A stretch of DNA of 34,956 nt. Source: Thermoprotei archaeon. GTDB taxonomy: Archaea > Thermoproteota > Nitrososphaeria > Geothermarchaeales > JDFR-13. The stretch covers positions 1-34,956 of the forward strand of contig DQXH01000056.1 in the NCBI GenBank assembly GCA_011043415.1. Direction: 5' to 3'. The notes below the pieces were generated by a model that saw only the letters and a program-made list of their open reading frames with translations, made no database searches and was not told the DNA's origin. The position numbers were made by a program, and so were the translations under genes. Each line of letters opens with the position of its first letter. Within the stretch, counting starts at the first letter, position 1. Below, in pieces: positions 6,844 to 34,956 of this stretch.

Positions 6844-7413
6844 ATGATAGTTGCTGTTACTGGTACACCGGGTGTAGGTAAAACTACTTTGAGTAAAATA
6901 ATTTCGGATGATTTTAAGTTGAAGTATATTGATTTTGAAGGTTTTCTAATTGAAAATAAACTTTATATTGAGTATGATGAGTCTTCTGGTAGTTATGTTA
7001 TAGACATTGATAGAGCGAGAGATTACTTTAACTCTTTTTCATTTGAAGACGCGGTTTTAGATGGTCATAACATAATACTAATCTATCCATGTGAGAGGAT
7101 AGATTATATAATTCTACTGAGGTGTTCACCATATGTATTGTATGACCGGATGAAAAGGAAGGGGTATGCAGATAATAAGATTATAGAGAATATACAGGCG
7201 GAGATACTTGATATAATAGCGAGTGATGTATATGGCAATTGTGAAGTGAGGAAGGTTATGGAGGTTGATGTGAGTGAAGGGGTCGATAGAAAATATACTC
7301 TTATTAAGAAATTTCTAAAGGGGGGTTTTCCAGAGGGGTATAGAGAAAGGGTTGATTGGTTGTCTTTAGTAGCTGATAAAGGTGATTTAAATAGATTTAT
7401 GAGGCCTTTATGA
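6844..7413 (+). CDS. AK6/Fap7-like archaeal adenylate kinase / P-loop nucleotide kinase
   Basis: MIVAVTGTPGVGKTTLSKII, YVIDIDRARDYF, LDGH, LRCSPYVLYDRMKRKGY, ENIQAEILDIIASDVYG. Confidence 0.82.
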   Translation: MIVAVTGTPGVGKTTLSKIISDDFKLKYIDFEGFLIENKLYIEYDESSGSYVIDIDRARDYFNSFSFEDAVLDGHNIILIYPCERIDYIILLRCSPYVLYDRMKRKGYADNKIIENIQAEILDIIASDVYGNCEVRKVMEVDVSEGVDRKYTLIKKFLKGGFPEGYRERVDWLSLVADKGDLNRFMRPL

Positions 7414-8947
7414 TAGGCTTGACTTTAATTGGAAATGGTAGTGGGTTTACAGTATCTCTTATAATTGCTTCTCCAATATCTAGTTGTTTCATATATTCAA
7501 TTTGATCATGTGTAAGAGATATTATATTCGATATTACTCTAATATCTTCGTAGCCCGATAGTCTATGTATAATTAAGAACCCAGAGTTTTTGATTATATC
7601 TTTGGTTAACTGGCTAGGGAATTGGGATACGATAAAAACGGATTCCCCGAATTTTCTCAATTCATTAACGAGCTTCTCACCTATATTAGGCGGGTCGTAG
7701 TCTCTTCTCGGTGGAAGAATATATTTAGCTTCCTCAATTACAGTCACGTGGTTAAAGTTCTTCTTACCCTTGATAAGTTGATGGTCGTATATCGTCTTCA
7801 AAATTATATAAATAAATATTTTCCTTATGAGTACCTCTCTAATATCTCCAACCTGGATAATTACATTTTTATTCATTAAATCCCTCGGGTTGAAGGTATC
7901 CTCGTTGCTGAAGATCCTGCTAGCCTGACCTTCTACAAGCTGCTTTAACCTCCTTAATAATGCCATCTTAGTCTCATTCTCACTATATGACTTGATCGGG
8001 TATTCTTCAAGTATCTTTACTAATGCAGGTAGATTAGGTTCGGGTTCTCCAGTCAACCTATATCCTGAGAAAGTTGATTCAAGTACCATTTTAAAATAAT
8101 ATGCCTGAGGATGTGTAAAACCATATACCTCACTGAATATATCTGATATCATAGATATATGCTCCTCCTCATCTATATCCGACCAGATCTTAAGTGGATT
8201 CAATGAAACTTGGTCGCGACCTATTCTAAGTACTCGCTCATAATTATTAAGTAGCTTGTCATATTCATTATGTATATCTATCACCATATACTTAATCTGG
8301 GGAGGTAGCTGATTTAATATCGTAGCGATTGTAGTGGTTTTACCCGTTCCCGTTGTTCCAATGCATGTAAGATGCCTACTTAACATCCCTAATCTAACTC
8401 TATATATTTCATTAGTATCTATCACCCTACCTAGAATTATATCTCCCTCTGTAGCCTCGGATAAAACTGGTAACTTAAATATACTTCGTGGTTTAATACC
8501 CTGACTGTAGTTATCTTCTATGATGAAAAAATGTGGATTAGGGTTTTGGCTTCCTACCTTCCCCCATAAATATAATTTCCTTAGCTCGGATCCTGTTAAA
8601 GGATGTAGCTGGTAATTTGGATATATTGCCTTAAATGTATTCTCTACTATAAATAGGTTTCTCCTCATCTCATCGAGTTCTCTACCTATCGTCAACACAG
8701 TTAATATAGTCCTCCCATTCAAACCATAATAAGTCATTTGAAATGGGATGCCCATCCTGTTCAGTGCATTAACTAAGTTTTGAAACGACCTATAATTTAG
8801 ATATGCATTTAACTTCTTATCGTCGTCGTATATTGGGATCGCCTGGATCCTATATCCACCTATCCAGAGTTTATCATTAATCAATATACCATCATTAGCG
8901 GCCTCTAACTTATTAATGACTTTTCTTCTAAATCTTATTCTCAGCAT
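7397..8947 (-). CDS. HerA/VirB4/FtsK-superfamily DNA-translocase-like ATPase
   Basis: Walker A CIGTTGTGKTTTIATIL, Walker B YMVIDIHNEYDKL, late motifs HVTVIEEAKYILPP, FIVSQFPSQLTKDIIKNSGFLIIHRL. First gene 5' of a pilin/secretion gene set on the same strand as judged by map order. Confidence 0.8.
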   Translation of the reverse strand: MLRIRFRRKVINKLEAANDGILINDKLWIGGYRIQAIPIYDDDKKLNAYLNYRSFQNLVNALNRMGIPFQMTYYGLNGRTILTVLTIGRELDEMRRNLFIVENTFKAIYPNYQLHPLTGSELRKLYLWGKVGSQNPNPHFFIIEDNYSQGIKPRSIFKLPVLSEATEGDIILGRVIDTNEIYRVRLGMLSRHLTCIGTTGTGKTTTIATILNQLPPQIKYMVIDIHNEYDKLLNNYERVLRIGRDQVSLNPLKIWSDIDEEEHISMISDIFSEVYGFTHPQAYYFKMVLESTFSGYRLTGEPEPNLPALVKILEEYPIKSYSENETKMALLRRLKQLVEGQASRIFSNEDTFNPRDLMNKNVIIQVGDIREVLIRKIFIYIILKTIYDHQLIKGKKNFNHVTVIEEAKYILPPRRDYDPPNIGEKLVNELRKFGESVFIVSQFPSQLTKDIIKNSGFLIIHRLSGYEDIRVISNIISLTHDQIEYMKQLDIGEAIIRDTVNPLPFPIKVKPIIKAS

Positions 8948-8963
8948 ATATTTACACCGGTTG

Positions 8964-9146
8964 CTAGTCTGGAAGGAAGTAAAACATGGTCTTATATAGC
9001 CAGTTTAAACCCTCCCATATTTTATCTATGAACTCGTTTATTCTATCCTGAATCTGTCCAAGAGCTGCTATACTTAATCCTATAGCTATAAAAGCCACAA
9101 GTATCAATAAAGCCTCTTCCAATATTTGAACACCTTTCCTCTTCAT
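8964..9146 (-). CDS. 60-aa single-TM pilin-like protein with class III (prepilin) signal
   Basis: MKRKGVQILEEALLILVAFIAIGLSIAALGQIQDRINEF...: basic n-region, KG cleavage-like site, Glu at +6/+7, long hydrophobic helix. Confidence 0.65.
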   Translation of the reverse strand: MKRKGVQILEEALLILVAFIAIGLSIAALGQIQDRINEFIDKIWEGLNWLYKTMFYFLPD

Positions 9147-9188
9147 TCCATAAAATATCCGTTGTCTAAAAGTTTTTAAATACCCCCA

Positions 9189-9713
9189 TTAAATCGAGAC
9201 TATGCCTAACATCAATTTGATCAGGATATAAGAGAATAGTAAATACAATAGAGTTTTCAATACTATCCTCTTTAATGACATTCTTTCTATGCAGAAATAT
9301 GAATAAATATACTCATATAGTAATAATGTATTAATTGAGAAGATGACTACAATTATTATATCATAATTAGGTAGGATGAAGAAGCTGATTCTATCAAGAA
9401 ATTTTTGGAGCACGTATAATACTGAGGTTAAAATAGATAGTACGGCGATGAATACATATGAAACTATCTTTAATTTCATCCTGATTAGATTGACGTGTGT
9501 TTTTAGGGTTGATATCGCCTTTTTAATCTTCTTCTTATGATTTAGATAGGATATAAGTATATCTTTATCATAGTTCCGTAGAATATCCTCACTTATATCT
9601 ACTTCAATGTTTTTAATATATCTCCTTAAACTACTATAGTCACCTTCATAATATAATGCCCTCCCAATAGAATATCCCTCTATAACCCTATCTATTATTC
9701 TCTCTTCATCCAT
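9189..9713 (-). CDS. Membrane protein, candidate second half of a split type II/IV secretion platform protein (GspF/TadC-like)
   Basis: Soluble N-terminal helical region followed by multiple hydrophobic segments; overlaps the adjacent membrane ORF by 19 nt and lies next to a secretion ATPase. Confidence 0.5.
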   Translation of the reverse strand: MDEERIIDRVIEGYSIGRALYYEGDYSSLRRYIKNIEVDISEDILRNYDKDILISYLNHKKKIKKAISTLKTHVNLIRMKLKIVSYVFIAVLSILTSVLYVLQKFLDRISFFILPNYDIIIVVIFSINTLLLYEYIYSYFCIERMSLKRIVLKTLLYLLFSYILIKLMLGIVSI

Positions 9714-10198
9714 ACTATCCTCCTCATCGTTAAAAGCAGGATTAATAGTTGTATTACTGGCGTCATTAAAATTATAGTGCTATCGAATGAGAGTAGTAGA
9801 ATTAATGTAAGTATAGGGGGGAATATTAATGAAGCTAGTATAAAGAGGGCGTAAATATCGATCTTCTCCGTATATACAATAAATTTATTATTAATCATAT
9901 TAATGATCTCGTTGACCTTGATCATTGCGATCTCCCTTTCACCCAGGATAGGAAACTCATTTCTCTCCCCTGGGATTAAACTTATAGATATATCCTCCCC
10001 CTTCAAAGCCCTTCTTAGCTCGTCATATCCACATGATTTAATTGACGTCGGCAATGACCGTGTTAAGTAATATAACGTTATAAATTCATATAACTTATCA
10101 AGTTTTTTGAATAAATTTACTGAATAATGTTTAATATATCTATGAATCAGCAGATATACTGTTATATACTCAAGGATTAATATAATATATTCATACAT
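9695..10198 (-). CDS. Membrane protein, candidate first half of a split GspF/TadC-like platform protein
   Basis: TM - cytoplasmic helical segment (FITLYYLTRSLPTSIKSCGYDELRRALKGEDIS...) - two TMs (ALFILASLIFPPILTLILLLSF); overlaps the secretion ATPase start by 8 nt. Confidence 0.5.
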   Translation of the reverse strand: MYEYIILILEYITVYLLIHRYIKHYSVNLFKKLDKLYEFITLYYLTRSLPTSIKSCGYDELRRALKGEDISISLIPGERNEFPILGEREIAMIKVNEIINMINNKFIVYTEKIDIYALFILASLIFPPILTLILLLSFDSTIILMTPVIQLLILLLTMRRIVWMKRE

Positions 10199-11588
10199 TT
10201 CTCCGGCTTCTCTTTATAAATTCAATAAACTCTTCATAATTTATTATCTCTCCATTCGACAGTTTTTCCTTGGTAAATGTAAATAGTTCTAATAAATCAT
10301 TATACTTCAGTTTTAATCTTTTGCCTAGTTTTTCAGCTAAGATAGAGAGTCCATAATCCCTCTGTGATATTTCCTTTATTCTATATATCTTTACGTCATT
10401 ATCCTTATACTCTAGCGTATAGACGCCGTCAACATATCTTCTATTTTCATCTAAATCCCTTTTCATGATTACAACCAGGTCTATATCACATATTATTCGC
10501 GGATCCATTTCCTCGTGTATGAGCCATCTTTTCAAAAGACTATCTATTGAGTGAGTATGTATCGTGGTAGCGACATTTAATCCTAGTGAAATCGAGTAAA
10601 ATAATATCTCTACATCATGTTTAGTTAACGTTTCGCCGATGATTATATAACCCGGGCTTCTTCTTAATGTAAATATTATCTGCTCTTCCTTACTCCACTT
10701 GTTAATTTTCCCAAGTCTATAAAATACCTGGTGATTACCATAACGCCTTAAATCGAGTGACTCTCTAGCTTCTTCAATATATACCTTTCTAATATGATTA
10801 GGGAGTATAGATAATAGTGAGTTTAATAATGTAGTTTTTCCTGTATTAGGTGAGCCCGCGATTATAATATTAGCCAGGCTATATATAGATACAATTAAAA
10901 TTGAGGTTAAATCTACATCGATCGACCCTAAATTAATCAGCTTAGTTAGTGAATACATTAGATGTCTGAGGTTCCTTAGTGAGATGAAATAATCTCCATA
11001 TGTAATCTGAGGCCCATCAATATTTAATCTATAATGTATTTTACTATTGTATAAATCTGCCTCCATATTTCCTCTAAGAGGATCCAGCCCCTCACCTTTA
11101 ATAAATTCTATGAGTCTTATTAGTGAGAGTACTTCAGACTTCGTAAGTACAATATTTGTAATTAATTTCCCATACCTTCTATGATCTACATATATCGGAT
11201 ATTCAGATCCATTGATGAATATTTCATTAATGTTAATATCGTATAGCAGGGGCGCGACTCTCGATAGATTTAAAGATTCCCAGAATATCAGGTCGGGGAT
11301 CAGATCATTCTGAGGATCTATATTTAATCGTCTAAGCTCCTCACTTATCTTATTTATATTTATATTATAGAATATATCAAAGTTAATCTCATTGAACTCT
11401 GCCAATGCGTCGAAAACAGGATATTTCTGAGATAATTCTCTAACTAAAGGCAAAAGCCCTATATACTCTTCATTTAGGTAAACCTCATACTTCTTCTCCT
11501 CTTTATTTATATAAACTGTGTATACATTGTTAATGTCATATGATGGTTTGTCGATGTATCCGAGTAACAACTCTAGGTACATGTCCAT
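10191..11588 (-). CDS. Type II/IV secretion system ATPase (GspE/TadA/VirB11-type)
   Basis: Walker A IIAGSPNTGKTTLLNSLLSILP, IEEARESLDL, TLRRSPGYIIIGETLTKHDVEILFYSISLGLNVATTIHTHSIDSLLKRW. Confidence 0.88.
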   Translation of the reverse strand: MDMYLELLLGYIDKPSYDINNVYTVYINKEEKKYEVYLNEEYIGLLPLVRELSQKYPVFDALAEFNEINFDIFYNININKISEELRRLNIDPQNDLIPDLIFWESLNLSRVAPLLYDININEIFINGSEYPIYVDHRRYGKLITNIVLTKSEVLSLIRLIEFIKGEGLDPLRGNMEADLYNSKIHYRLNIDGPQITYGDYFISLRNLRHLMYSLTKLINLGSIDVDLTSILIVSIYSLANIIIAGSPNTGKTTLLNSLLSILPNHIRKVYIEEARESLDLRRYGNHQVFYRLGKINKWSKEEQIIFTLRRSPGYIIIGETLTKHDVEILFYSISLGLNVATTIHTHSIDSLLKRWLIHEEMDPRIICDIDLVVIMKRDLDENRRYVDGVYTLEYKDNDVKIYRIKEISQRDYGLSILAEKLGKRLKLKYNDLLELFTFTKEKLSNGEIINYEEFIEFIKRSRRNV

Positions 11589-11635
11589 TAAGGTAAGTTG
11601 TTTAAAAATATATAACTACACCCAATTTTAATGGG

Positions 11636-11737
11636 ATGAAGAGGGTTCTTGAGAAAGTTCTGATATCTAATATCGATATAATAATCGTAATATTGATAAT
11701 AGTCTCGATTCTCATAAGGGTGATTGGCTATGGATAA
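11636..11737 (+). CDS. 33-aa single-TM micro-protein, first in the divergent plus-strand pilus operon
   Basis: Hand translation MKRVLEKVLISNIDIIIVILIIVSILIRVIGYG*; overlaps the next start by 8 nt; not in the ORF track. Confidence 0.45.
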   Translation: MKRVLEKVLISNIDIIIVILIIVSILIRVIGYG

Positions 11738-11918
11738 CACAGTGGCTTATCTATTAATGGAGGTAGTTATAGCAGTGGTATGTATAAGCCTGGTTTTAGT
11801 ATTCTCAAATTTGTTATCAAGCTCTATACTTGGACTATTTCATAGGCATTTGAATAATGGTACAATATACTCGGATGGTTTAATTAGAATTATTAGAGAG
11901 TTGGTGTTAAATGTCTAG
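11730..11918 (+). CDS. Small membrane protein (62 aa from ATG 11730)
   Basis: MDNTVAYLLMEVVIAVVCISLVLVFSNLLSSSILGLFHRHL...; SD-like GGTGAT at 11719-11724. The tracked start at 11724 is a TTG. Confidence 0.6.
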   Translation: MDNTVAYLLMEVVIAVVCISLVLVFSNLLSSSILGLFHRHLNNGTIYSDGLIRIIRELVLNV

Positions 11919-12018
11919 TGAGATAATTGAATCCTTTCTTGGTCTCTTTATATTCTTCATAATCGTGATTCTTGTTTTAATCTATGTATTTATCATGATA
12001 ATGGTGTTCCTACTATGA
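11911..12018 (+). CDS. 35-aa single-TM micro-protein
   Basis: Hand translation MSSEIIESFLGLFIFFIIVILVLIYVFIMIMVFLL*; GGTG 5' of the ATG; overlaps both neighbours (ATGA at 12015-12018). Confidence 0.5.
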   Translation: MSSEIIESFLGLFIFFIIVILVLIYVFIMIMVFLL

Positions 12019-12401
12019 GGAAGATGTTTGAGATTCTGGTTTCGTCCTCGATAATTGTAGCTTTCATAATGATCTCTGTAATAGGGCATATTAAGATATT
12101 AAGTGGCTTACAAAGTAAAAACAAGTATAGTGATCCATGCATAGATCTACTGTCCAATATGTATGAGAATAATAGTAGTTATATCGCTAGGACCCAGGGA
12201 AATTCTTCTCTCAGGATTATATACATATATTCAACTAGTATTCAAGATGCTGAACCAGTGTTAATTATTTTAATTACAAAAAACATGAGCACTATAAGTA
12301 TAGAGGCTTATATACCAGCTAACTACACGATGATGTCTAGATACCGTGTATATGGTGGGGGGTGCATGTATTGTTTTGTAAGAGAAGAGGCTGGAGTATA
12401 G
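12015..12401 (+). CDS. Pseudopilin-like protein, one N-terminal TM plus ectodomain
   Basis: MRKMFEILVSSSIIVAFIMISVIGHIKIL followed by a soluble region with N-glycosylation sequons (NNSS, NSSL, NMST, NYT). Confidence 0.55.
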   Translation: MRKMFEILVSSSIIVAFIMISVIGHIKILSGLQSKNKYSDPCIDLLSNMYENNSSYIARTQGNSSLRIIYIYSTSIQDAEPVLIILITKNMSTISIEAYIPANYTMMSRYRVYGGGCMYCFVREEAGV

Positions 12402-12697
12402 CCTTATCAACGATATTATTGATTGCGGTTCTCATATTTGTAGATGGGATGATTTATGAAATAAAAAGTATCGAGTATGAGATAGGGAATTTTGATGAAT
12501 ACATTCTGAAGTATTCGGCATCGCTATATATAGTAAATAAGTTTATCAATTCAAATAGCCTGGTTATATTTTACCCGGATTCAATAGAAGTTGTAGATAT
12601 TGATTTTAATGAAACTTATTGTAGCCTGTTGGTTAGGAAGGTGAGTGGCCCATCCAATCTAGATATTTACTATAAAATTATAATTGAGCATCTGTAG
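12362..12697 (+). CDS. Pilin-like protein with class III signal-like N-terminus
   Basis: CKRRGWSIALSTILLIAVLIFVDGMIYEI...; 40-nt overlap with the preceding ORF if GTG 12362 is used (start uncertain). Confidence 0.55.
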   Translation: MHVLFCKRRGWSIALSTILLIAVLIFVDGMIYEIKSIEYEIGNFDEYILKYSASLYIVNKFINSNSLVIFYPDSIEVVDIDFNETYCSLLVRKVSGPSNLDIYYKIIIEHL

Positions 12698-13528
12698 CTA
12701 GTTTCTACTTCTAAATCTCTTCTTAGTTACTTGTATATTCCCTTCACTCATTCTCTTAATTTCTGCCAGTCTGTCTCTTAAGGTGAATCTGCTAACTTTA
12801 AGTACCCTACTTAATATAGTCTGATTGAAGTATGGTCTTCTATCCTCTTTATATGCCAATGACATTTCACCGAGGTATATAAGTAGTGCAGAGACTGTTT
12901 TTATGCTTTTTCCCTTTAAATATCTTGATAGTGAAGACCCTAATTCATTTATGATTTTCCAGATTCTCTCATAATAATACTTATCTATCTTCGATAAATT
13001 CAGTTCCTTAATAACCTTATTTAGATATAAATTTGTGGCTGCTAAGTAATCTGGTTTAAACTGTCTTATAGTGTTAGAGTTCTTTAGTTTGTATATTAGC
13101 TTCAAGATCCTACTTCTATTAAGTTTAACTCCATATCTTAACATAAAGACACTATCTAGATCCTTGAACGTTATAAGATAATTCTTATCCTCATATGCTG
13201 ATACGATTAAGGCTGTTGATACTGCTGTATAAGGGTCTAATCTCCTATCTCTCAGCCTACTCAATATCGTTATCATGTGTCTCTTAGCTCTTTTCATTAT
13301 ATTAGCTGGGATATCCAAGATGTTTGATACTTCATAGAATATATCTAGATACTTTCTATCTAAGGCCTCCGACTTAATTAATATAATTTCATTAAAATTC
13401 CTATCTATATAGTACTCGTTTTCAGAAGACTCTTCCAATATAGTTCCACATACCTTACAGATGACTCTTCCTCTAAGTCTTATAAATTCTACTGAGCCGC
13501 ATATGGGGCATACCTTCGGGATCATCAA
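12698..13528 (-). CDS. tfb: Divergent transcription initiation factor B (TFB) paralog
   Basis: N-terminal zinc ribbon CPICGSVEFIRLRGRVICKVCG, two cyclin-like helical repeats, C-terminal HTH (NQTILSRVLKVSRFTLRDRLAEI); short (276 aa). Confidence 0.78.
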   Translation of the reverse strand: MMIPKVCPICGSVEFIRLRGRVICKVCGTILEESSENEYYIDRNFNEIILIKSEALDRKYLDIFYEVSNILDIPANIMKRAKRHMITILSRLRDRRLDPYTAVSTALIVSAYEDKNYLITFKDLDSVFMLRYGVKLNRSRILKLIYKLKNSNTIRQFKPDYLAATNLYLNKVIKELNLSKIDKYYYERIWKIINELGSSLSRYLKGKSIKTVSALLIYLGEMSLAYKEDRRPYFNQTILSRVLKVSRFTLRDRLAEIKRMSEGNIQVTKKRFRSRN

Positions 13529-13700: not shown

Positions 13701-14117
13701 ATGATGCCTATAAATCTTCTTACTAGAGAATTAAATCTATTGATTAATAAGGAGGTAATAGTTGAGTTTAAAGATGGAGGTCGTTTAAAGGGTGTTTTAA
13801 AGGCTATCGACCCAACTACTCTAAATATAGTATTATCGGATATCGAGGTAGGTAGGGAGAAGTATCGTGTAATAGTTTATCGGGGAGAGAATATTAAGGC
13901 AATATACCTTAAAGAGCGTTATATAGATCTAACAGAGCTTAGGAAGAGGTTGGAACGTGTTTTCCCTAGAGTCGTAGAATATAGGCCTTCCGAGAAAGCA
14001 CTTATCGTCATGAATAAAATTAAAGTTACGGAGGACGGGGTATTCGGGGAACCCGGCCCGATCTACAACAGGGTTAAGAGAATTTATGATGAGTATATCG
14101 CTGAGATAAAGGGTTAA
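13701..14117 (+). CDS. LSm/Sm-like RNA-binding protein with extra C-terminal domain (SmAP3-like)
   Basis: LLINKEVIVEFKDGGRLKGVLKAIDPTTLNIVLSD Sm1 motif, VIVYRGENIKAIYL Sm2-like motif, about 65-aa C-terminal extension. Confidence 0.75.
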   Translation: MMPINLLTRELNLLINKEVIVEFKDGGRLKGVLKAIDPTTLNIVLSDIEVGREKYRVIVYRGENIKAIYLKERYIDLTELRKRLERVFPRVVEYRPSEKALIVMNKIKVTEDGVFGEPGPIYNRVKRIYDEYIAEIKG

Positions 14118-14812
14118 GTATACATATACTTATCTCCCTCTTTTTTAGTCGCCTCTAGAATCTCCCTAGTCCTCTTTTCATATTCCTCTGCAGTCTCTAA
14201 TAACTCCTCTAAATTCAATTTCATGTTAAGGATCTCTGAGATAGTCTTTAAGGCGGAGTATACACCCATTAAATCAATGGTTCTCTCTGGATCCGCGTAT
14301 GCCAATAAGGCGATCGCGGGAATATGCAATATTTCTGCATAATATAGTACCTGAGCTAGTGGCCCATATATTTTAACATCTTTCTGTATCTCCCGGTAGT
14401 CTAATCTATTTTTCCAGTAGTTGTTATATACTATCCTAATTAAATCTGACTCACCATCCTTCAATGAGGATGTTAACCCTCCGATGGTGATGACTCTATC
14501 AATACCCTTATTAGACAATTCCTCTAGAAGCTTCTTCACTAAAGTAGCTCCTCTATATCCCGGAGGGACCTCCTCTATATATAAAATCAGGAAATGCTTA
14601 TCGTACTCATATATTTCTACTGGATATGATAATCCGAATTTTGTGGTGGTTAATACTGGTGGAAGGTATTTGCTCTCGGCGATCGCTATTCTCTCAATTG
14701 AATCTAGGTTATCAATTAAATATTTTATAGTTAGGTAACCTACGTATCCTATTCCCTTAAACCCAGTTAATATAAGTCTTGTTTGTGGGTTTCTATACCA
14801 GTGTATTTTCAT
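14114..14812 (-). CDS. PAC2-family proteasome assembly chaperone-like protein
   Basis: LILTGFKGIGYVGYLTIKYLID, AIAESKYLPPVLTTTKFGLSYPVEIY, KGIDRVITIGGLTSS. Confidence 0.72.
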   Translation of the reverse strand: MKIHWYRNPQTRLILTGFKGIGYVGYLTIKYLIDNLDSIERIAIAESKYLPPVLTTTKFGLSYPVEIYEYDKHFLILYIEEVPPGYRGATLVKKLLEELSNKGIDRVITIGGLTSSLKDGESDLIRIVYNNYWKNRLDYREIQKDVKIYGPLAQVLYYAEILHIPAIALLAYADPERTIDLMGVYSALKTISEILNMKLNLEELLETAEEYEKRTREILEATKKEGDKYMYT

Positions 14813-33943: not shown

Positions 33944-34956
33944 ATGTCTTCAGATGAGATAATAGATGGTTACAGGGTGTCTTCCGTATTTAAATTACCG
34001 AATGGCAAGGAATACAATATATCATTTAATATCACGATAAGGAGGGTATCGGATGAATATAGGTATATAGTGGATGAAGTGTATGATGCTAAATTAATTA
34101 ATAAGGCTCGTGAGTTGATCGACAATATAATTTATACAATGACATATAATGACCAGTTCTTTGAAGATCCGGTTAAGTATATTCTTGATTCGCTAGATAA
34201 ACAGTATACTAGGGGTAGGGATAAGGTTTTTTACCAGAATATCAGGAAAGTCATTGAATATGTAATTATAAGGGATGTGATTGGATATAGGGAGATCACT
34301 CCACTACTATCTGACCCAGATATTGAGGACCTATCCTTATCCGCTCCAAATACCTATGTATTAGTATGGCACAAGAGATATAACAACCAGGGCTGGATGA
34401 AGACAAATATATTTCTAAATGACTCGGAGGTAAAGAAAATTATAAATAAATTGGCGTTTAGATCAGGTAAAAGCATTAATATGCTGAGTCCAGTACTAGA
34501 GGGGGTCTTGCCAGAGAACTATAGGGTTGTAGCTACTTGGTTGAATGAGGTTTCGCCACGTGGAAGTAGTTTTACAATAAGAAAGTATAAATCCAGGCCA
34601 TATACACTGACGGAACTGGTCTCATCGGGGGTACTACCTTCATACGTTGCAGCCTATCTATGGGTATTAGTTGATAGAAAGAAGTTTATCATGATAATAG
34701 GTCCATCTGGTGTAGGTAAGACTACGTTATTAAACTCCCTGTTACTATTGATACCGACATCAAAGAGGATTATAACCATTGAGGAGATCCCGGAGGTATA
34801 TCTACGTAATCATATAGGGTGGAAGCCGCTTACTACCAGATGGGATAAGGATACCTTAGACGAGATATTAAATCTACTTAAATACTCTTTGAGGGAGAGG
34901 GCTGACTACATTATATTAGGTGAGAGTAGGGGTTTAGAGGCTAGATTAGTATTTCA
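33944..34956 (+). CDS. Type II/IV secretion system ATPase (GspE/TadA-like), truncated by the window end
   Basis: Hand translation MSSDEIIDGYRVSSVFKLPNGKEYN...YREITPLLSDPDIEDLSLSAPNTYVLVWH...FIMIIGPSGVGKTTLLNSLLLLIPTSKRIITIEEIPEVYL...LKYSLRERADYIILGESRGLEARLVF. Not in the ORF track. Confidence 0.88.
   Translation, partial: MSSDEIIDGYRVSSVFKLPNGKEYNISFNITIRRVSDEYRYIVDEVYDAKLINKARELIDNIIYTMTYNDQFFEDPVKYILDSLDKQYTRGRDKVFYQNIRKVIEYVIIRDVIGYREITPLLSDPDIEDLSLSAPNTYVLVWHKRYNNQGWMKTNIFLNDSEVKKIINKLAFRSGKSINMLSPVLEGVLPENYRVVATWLNEVSPRGSSFTIRKYKSRPYTLTELVSSGVLPSYVAAYLWVLVDRKKFIMIIGPSGVGKTTLLNSLLLLIPTSKRIITIEEIPEVYLRNHIGWKPLTTRWDKDTLDEILNLLKYSLRERADYIILGESRGLEARLVF

Follow-up and report, generated by a model that had tools for sequence, protein, structure and literature searches.

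Sequence analysis of a Geothermarchaeota MAG (class Nitrososphaeria, 85%-complete; not Crenarchaeota) revealed a conserved block in which an ATPase of the CedD clade is encoded together with type IV pilus (T4P) genes. The block was found in a 34,956-nt stretch of DNA, here called the window. It comprises a TFB-like gene, a divergent mini-pilin array, the secretion ATPase E, the membrane proteins M1 and M2, a 60-aa pilin, and CedD (Table 1). We infer, with a probability of roughly 0.55, that this block specifies a dedicated, probably DNA-damage-inducible DNA-import pilus that brings the functions of Ced and Ups together at a single locus. All open reading frames (ORFs) named in a first-pass annotation of this DNA were recovered at the positions given there, including five overlapping single-TM ORFs on the plus strand, the first of which begins 47 nt past the E start codon (11588). 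The unit proved to be wider than first noted, with the TFB-like gene at one end and a conserved kinase neighbour at the other.

Table 1. Features of the block and its flanking slot markers (positions in the window)
Feature	Coordinates	Strand	Basis or remarks
P-loop kinase, PRK03839-like; convergent, conserved neighbour and slot marker	6844..7413	+	
CedD-type HerA/VirB4-superfamily ATPase, 516 aa	7397..8947	-	NCBIfam best = CedD, tree, synteny slot
60-aa major-pilin candidate	8964..9146	-	class III context KRKG/VQILEE, Glu +5
M2, 174 aa, half-size inner-membrane platform candidate (T2SSF/TadC-like)	9189..9713	-	
M1, 167 aa, half-size inner-membrane platform candidate	9695..10198	-	
E, T4P-type secretion ATPase (PF00437; FlaI/TadA best)	10191..11588	-	
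ORF a, mini-pilin-like, 33 aa, MKRVLE...	11636..11737	+	counterparts in L039, L040, L041, L035, L037
ORF b, pilin-like, 62 aa	11730..11918	+	Flp1_like 0.016; counterparts in relatives
ORF c, mini-pilin-like, 35 aa, MSSEIIE...	11911..12018	+	relatives' counterparts 38-39 aa, most begin MSE.IE
ORF d, minor-pilin-like, 128 aa, N-terminal TM	12015..12401	+	counterparts in relatives
ORF e, minor-pilin-like, 111 aa, N-terminal TM	12362..12697	+	counterparts in relatives
TFB/TFIIB-like protein, Zn ribbon; proposed dedicated regulator	12698..13528	-	cyclin repeat visible in homologues
Lsm-like protein, slot marker	13701..14117	+	common to Sulfolobales/Desulfurococcales cedD loci and Thermoproteales 4D loci
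PAC2-family protein, slot marker	14114..14812	-	

Family score, tree placement, and position on the chromosome assign the HerA-like ATPase to the CedD clade. Scoring against NCBIfam models gave 2.7e-51 for CedD versus 7e-21 for HerA and 3e-10 for CedB, and CedD was the best-scoring family in 16 of 16 homologues. The score on the CedD model NF053655 was 175 bits, with an equivalog cut-off of 600, and the match was limited to the ATPase domain. In the phylogenetic tree, CedD-like proteins split off from HerA, CedB, and others (UFBoot 95), the T4P-linked CedDs constituted one side of a 99% split, and HerA formed a separate clade (99%). An N-terminal TM hairpin was found in Sulfolobales CedD and in Brock/Bathy-type block members and was absent in the window ATPase and every Nitrososphaeria member examined. 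Because this N-terminal TM domain is missing, the protein is designated a CedD-clade ATPase and not CedD proper. CedD is the DNA-import ATPase of Saccharolobus; in S. islandicus, CedD (SiRe_1715) is needed for DNA import, and its gene is located away from pilus genes (PMC11868833). A structure search with the predicted model (pLDDT 82) ranked HerA above VirB4. VirB4/TraC profiles matched relatives of the window ATPase, and a VirB4 model was the best one for neither this protein nor its homologues. The first-pass annotation had proposed a Ced-type DNA-translocating ATPase, which holds, and had expected it to group with CedB/VirB4, an identity that was dropped in view of the CedD score and the split from CedB; CedD is a component described in 2025. 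A search of 61 genomes for CedB, including 11 of the Geothermarchaeota family, returned nothing above the cut-off.

Analysis of E by profile scores revealed FlaI/TadA as the closest families, i.e., the archaeal T4P lineage, in agreement with a GspE/FlaI-type assembly ATPase. The E tree was redone without the long-branch PIN/KH-type ATPases that had disturbed its first version. The ATPases of the blocks and of the 4D loci (see below) then formed one clade (100%) versus other T4P ATPases. The two ATPases had previously been read as the VirB4-plus-VirB11 pair of type IV secretion. Since E is of the archaeal T4P lineage and not a T4SS VirB11, an identity rejected on the closer FlaI/TadA match, and VirB4 is never the best match for the other ATPase, this hallmark fails. 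In almost every block, M1 and M2 lie side by side, flanked by E and the pilin, and the two are candidates for a split, TadB/TadC-like platform. Comparison of M1 with TadC of other archaeal T4P by hhalign gave 92% over 47 columns. A T2SSF match (1e-4) was obtained for 3 of 21 M2 homologues; the predicted M2 model consists of short helices, one 59-aa helix, and two TM-length helices, and a PDB fold search with it gave no match.

The 60-aa protein shows the class III pilin feature with Glu+5, and residues Q2, E5, and E6 do not vary across 17 homologues. One member of this family matched Flp_Fap (0.0034). A PDB search with its profile revealed nothing credible. Among 39 matches to this pilin in 400 genomes, 26 have cedD as a neighbour, including all 16 best. 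In full blocks, the pilin gene is positioned immediately before cedD or overlaps it on the same strand, with mostly short gaps. The divergent five-ORF array is matched gene for gene in relatives; several of the mini-pilins have no basic leader. No prepilin peptidase of family PF01478 was detected in this MAG, whose completeness is 85%. It may be absent from the assembly or divergent, because other T4P ATPases are present in the genome.

The core block (E, pilin, and CedD) keeps its gene order and strand in 35 species-level genomes, which come from Nitrososphaeria, Brockarchaeota, and deeper lineages. A TFB gene is adjacent in 30 of these blocks, and a convergent kinase was detected in 32. Block matches in genome contigs came from a profile search; a single-protein search gave none. 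This recurrence indicates that the ORF set is not a chance assembly. The co-localisation in relatives that the first-pass annotation had asked for is thus observed, and the linkage of ATPase and pilus is deeply conserved, in a gene set unlike that of Ced (CedA/A1/A2/B) or Ted. The window cedD occupies the same slot on the chromosome as cedD of Sulfolobales and Desulfurococcales: the order is Lsm-[RPB8]-cedD-kinase-thermosome-S17e in Thermoproteia and Lsm-TFB-pilus-cedD-kinase(-thermosome-S17e) in block genomes. In many genomes, including those of Desulfurococcales type, kinase and cedD remain neighbours in the absence of the pilus. A 170-aa TFB3-like gene is located one gene away from cedD in a Sulfolobales genome, and TFB3 (Saci_0665) governs ups and ced (PMC6934391).

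In the proposed mechanism, E with the split platform M1/M2 would build a thin surface-exposed type IV pilus by polymerising the 60-aa pilin, and the divergent mini-pilins may serve as tip or initiation subunits. The pilus would touch DNA or a partner cell, and a cytoplasmic CedD hexamer, tethered to the membrane through the base of the pilus, would draw the DNA in to serve as a template for recombination. Expression of the block may be switched on by the neighbouring TFB paralogue, in the way that TFB3 acts on ups and ced in Sulfolobales. A pilus and CedD encoded in one block would therefore do what Sulfolobales divide between Ced (CedD) and Ups. The sub-cut-off CedD score and its restriction to the ATPase domain, the weak platform matches of M1/M2, the undetected prepilin peptidase, the mini-pilins lacking a basic leader, and the structural ranking of HerA over VirB4 weigh against this reading.

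It appears rather unlikely that the block encodes an Ups-like adhesion pilus whose sole role is to collect cells or attach to surfaces, while CedD uses an unlinked, unrecognised CedA-like channel, the linkage reflecting co-regulation by TFB. In Sulfolobales, aggregation is indeed mediated by Ups pili, which are distinct from Ced (PMC11868833), and CedD can work without the block pilus because CedD and the kinase persist in pilus-less genomes. However, the same-strand abutment or overlap of the pilin gene with cedD in full blocks and the lack of a CedB-level protein in all 11 Geothermarchaeota-family genomes argue against this arrangement. There is only a small chance that the block is a T4P or secretion machine unrelated to DNA, with the HerA-like ATPase as a second pilus motor (e.g., for retraction or substrate selection). 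Another motor would fit because PilT-type retraction ATPases are missing in archaea (PMC4858521), and the window ATPase has no TM hairpin like that of import-competent CedD. Its ATPase core and slot are nevertheless those of CedD, the adjoining TFB gene parallels TFB3 close to Sulfolobales cedD, and the block contains no conserved secreted cargo gene.

The matches of VirB4/TraC profiles to relatives would suit a device for conjugation or DNA export, perhaps derived from a mobile element, which we regard as very unlikely. A mobile-element origin was dropped in view of the fixed slot among housekeeping genes across lineages; a relaxase or integrase was not noticed in the block, the viral contigs searched contained no homologue, and S. 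islandicus CedD serves import, not export (PMC11868833). That a canonical HerA end-resection helicase lies beside the pilus genes by chance is barely credible, although the superfamily is shared and S. solfataricus HerA was the top structural match. The N-terminal region of the model is mixed alpha/beta, whereas a beta-barrel is expected for HerA. The pilus linkage recurs in the 35 genomes, and HerA-Mre11-Rad50 and NurA-HerA occupy separate loci elsewhere in the source genome. With these loci and the distinct HerA clade, the identity as repair HerA was dropped; the grouping with NurA-partner HerA that the first-pass annotation had considered is not seen.

Interpreted as a DNA-import pilus, the block would join two halves of archaeal DNA exchange, T4P (Ups) and importer (Ced), previously known only at separate loci. 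The range of the CedD-type machine would widen beyond Crenarchaeota and take in Nitrososphaeria, Brockarchaeota, and deeper lineages, and DNA uptake by archaea outside Crenarchaeota becomes directly testable. T4P subclade 4D contains an arCOG05558 ATPase, a 4-5 TM protein, TFIIB arCOG05559, and RPB8 (PMC4858521). The Thermoproteales 4D locus occupies the matching slot (Lsm-TFB-E-membrane protein-thermosome) and its ATPase falls in the E clade (100%), but it has no pilins, cedD, or kinase and only one membrane protein. 4D is a reduced or repurposed relative. A transcription-related role had been suggested for it; on the present reading, it would be what is left of a locus for a DNA-import pilus next to a TFB regulator. 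More tentatively, and with considerable doubt, the block may represent an ancestral Thermoproteota-wide importer in which T4P and CedD were one device under its own TFB. Sulfolobales and Desulfurococcales would have dismantled this device, retained CedD, which in Sulfolobales has TFB3 close by, and recruited CedB/CedA and Ups, and Thermoproteales would have kept the motor and TFB (4D), with Ted replacing CedD. If true, archaea would possess a T4P-CedD machine for competence that lacks a conjugation conduit of the VirB2/VirB6 type.

Comparison with known systems revealed that the window CedD resembles S. islandicus CedD in ATPase domain family, clade, and slot (marked by Lsm, thermosome, S17e, and, close by, a TFB3-like gene). 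The partners of CedD in Sulfolobales are CedA/A1/B and Ups pili encoded elsewhere, whereas the window CedD is linked to a T4P operon, has no TM hairpin, and comes from an archaeal family in which CedB was not found. The Ups pili (UpsX/E/F/A/B/C), which serve DNA exchange and are TFB3-controlled (PMC6934391), share a T4P ATPase, pilins, and, with M1/M2 as candidates, a platform with the block. They possess a single platform gene (UpsF), the pilins UpsA/UpsB, and no CedD in the operon, in contrast to the split candidate platform, 60-aa pilin, and mini-pilins of the window block. The Ted/Ced importers (PMC9905601) likewise combine a HerA/VirB4-superfamily ATPase with a filament, DNA import being the presumed function of the window block. 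Ced and Ted use VirB2-like pili and a VirB6-like channel, whereas the predicted filament of the window block is T4P-like with a GspE-type motor. The Tad/Flp and Epd pili (PMC6668835) are similar in their short pilin and TadA/FlaI-like ATPase, and in a two-gene platform if M1/M2 form one; the window block differs from them in that TadZ/RcpA-type partners were not seen and a CedD ATPase is added.

Every ORF of the first-pass annotation was found at the coordinates it had given (see table). The minus-strand genes are transcribed in the order E, M1, M2, 60-aa peptide and HerA-like ATPase, with tight or overlapping spacing. The plus strand carries five overlapping single-TM ORFs, the first of which begins 47 nt away from the start codon of E. 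The assembly, a MAG of 1.24 Mb, is 85% complete. Since the named close relatives in the ATPase profile matches are Candidatus Geothermarchaeota, Geothermarchaeum rappei and Scotarchaeum otlingeri, the host is a member of the Geothermarchaeota (class Nitrososphaeria) and not a crenarchaeote. Compared genomes were placed in taxa by kinship labels and by named contigs from the ATPase profile search; the labels Thermoproteales, Desulfurococcales and Sulfolobales derive from gene content, CedD score and control genomes.

Genes of the block and the adjoining kinase gene
Feature	Position	Strand
E, T2SSE ATPase, 465 aa	11588-10191	-
M1, half-size membrane protein	10198-9695	-
M2, half-size membrane protein	9713-9189	-
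60-aa peptide	9146-8964	-
HerA-like (CedD-type) ATPase	8947-7397	-
TFB-like protein, next gene after plus-strand array	12698-13528	
P-loop kinase, convergent with HerA-like ATPase gene	6844-7413	

The strongest evidence that the HerA-like ATPase is a CedD is its chromosomal position. The gene order is PUA-PAC2-TGT-Lsm-RPB8-cedD-kinase-thermosome-S17e in Thermoproteia and (PAC2/TGT)-Lsm-TFB-[pilins]-E-M1-M2-pilin-cedD-kinase, often followed by thermosome-S17e, in Nitrososphaeria, Brockarchaeota and related MAGs. This slot is also where a genuine CedD of the Sulfolobales (767 bits) is encoded. The first-pass annotation had made its functional link depend on the ATPase grouping with CedB/VirB4 and not with the NurA-partner HerA of repair. 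The separation from HerA held: in an ML tree built on the ATPase domain, HerA forms a 99% clade, all CedD-like proteins split from HerA, CedB and others (UFBoot 95), and another split (99%) has one side made up of the pilus-linked CedDs. Repair loci lie elsewhere in the genome, namely a NurA-HerA pair on C3 and, on C8, a DUF87 ATPase followed by ORFs read from sequence as Mre11- and Rad50-like. The ATPase is of Ced type, with CedD as the best NCBIfam model (2.7e-51, far under its Sulfolobales equivalog cut-off) ahead of repair HerA (7e-21) and CedB (3e-10). CedD was the top model in 16/16 homologues, and the family's 11 genomes yielded no CedB-level protein. A single paper has so far described CedD, placing it in the Ced system as a component specific to import (PMC11868833). 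A further DUF87 ATPase (584 aa) lies on contig 93 (L299:769-2523); its relatives at loci L302, L303 and L305 have a ~600-aa partner gene ahead of the ATPase. Loci L168, L169 and L170 carry CedD-like proteins of 346-357 aa in the cedD slot, without N-terminal domain or kinase neighbour.

The CedD structural model (pLDDT 82) best matched HerA-type translocases, with an R388 T4SS chain at rank 39; its N-terminal region is predicted to be mixed alpha/beta. An N-terminal TM hairpin is present in Sulfolobales CedDs and Brock/Bathy-type block CedDs and missing from Nitrososphaeria CedDs, perhaps because the pilus base supplies their membrane anchor.

Comparison with relatives showed that the co-localisation of ATPase and pilus genes is conserved. 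The core block (E, pilin and CedD) was found in 35 species-level genomes, with TFB detected in 30 and the kinase in 32. None of the literature we searched describes a CedD-pilus block; the supplements of PMC4858521, which lay outside that search, may mention this neighbourhood. That TFB and CedD genes are repeatedly neighbours suggests a dedicated transcriptional control. One Sulfolobales genome has a TFB3-like Zn-ribbon gene of 170 aa (L165:6253-6765, plus strand) that is separated from a genuine cedD only by a thermosome gene, and Sulfolobales ups and ced are under TFB3 control (PMC6934391). At loci L097 and L098, TFB lies immediately 5' of cedD and kinase with no pilus gene, a possible intermediate state.

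By its NCBIfam matches, E is of the archaeal T4P type (FlaI, 9e-17; TadA, 1e-15; VirB11, 3e-12). In the 60-aa protein the class III context reads K-R-x-[GA]|x-Q-x-x-E-E, which places Glu at +5; Gln and both Glu are invariant in 17 homologues. Its profile gave 39 matches among 400 phylum genomes, 26 of them, including the 16 best, directly upstream of a CedD-like gene. M1 and M2, paired between E and pilin in nearly all blocks, are likely, if weakly supported, platform proteins: M1 matched TadC of other T4P (hhalign, 92%), M2 matched T2SSF at 1e-4 in 3 of 21 homologues, and the M2 structural model had no PDB match. Relatives keep the divergent array gene for gene, with ORFs of ~33-53, 60-74, 35-39, 93-134 and 111-160 aa; in distant lineages the resemblance is looser. 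A search of this 85%-complete MAG gave no PF01478 prepilin peptidase, though several T4P ATPases are present. A second T2SSE-type ATPase (33944-34956, plus strand), cut by the contig end, belongs to another T4P clade than E.

The sequence-level steps of a pilus-CedD mechanism are shown. We infer filament formation, DNA transport and regulation: E, M1 and M2 would assemble a pilus from the 60-aa pilin and the mini-pilins, and CedD at its base would drive DNA entry for recombination repair. Natural transformation of Methanococcus maripaludis requires T4P-like pili, which by analogy makes a pilus-based DNA importer plausible in archaea. PMC10133366 deals with this topic.

Thermoproteales carry an E-type ATPase of the same clade (block and 4D split, 100%) in the order Lsm-TFB-E-membrane protein-thermosome, with pilin, cedD and kinase absent. 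Such 4D-like loci (L260, L261, L264, L266 and L268) lie in the cedD slot beside TFB and thermosome. Subclade 4D, left unexplained by its authors, comprises an ATPase that may lack its C-terminal part, a 4-5 TM protein and a TFIIB homologue, with RPB8 nearby (PMC4858521). The gene content of the Thermoproteales loci in the cedD slot matches that of subclade 4D, and the two are equated here by description.
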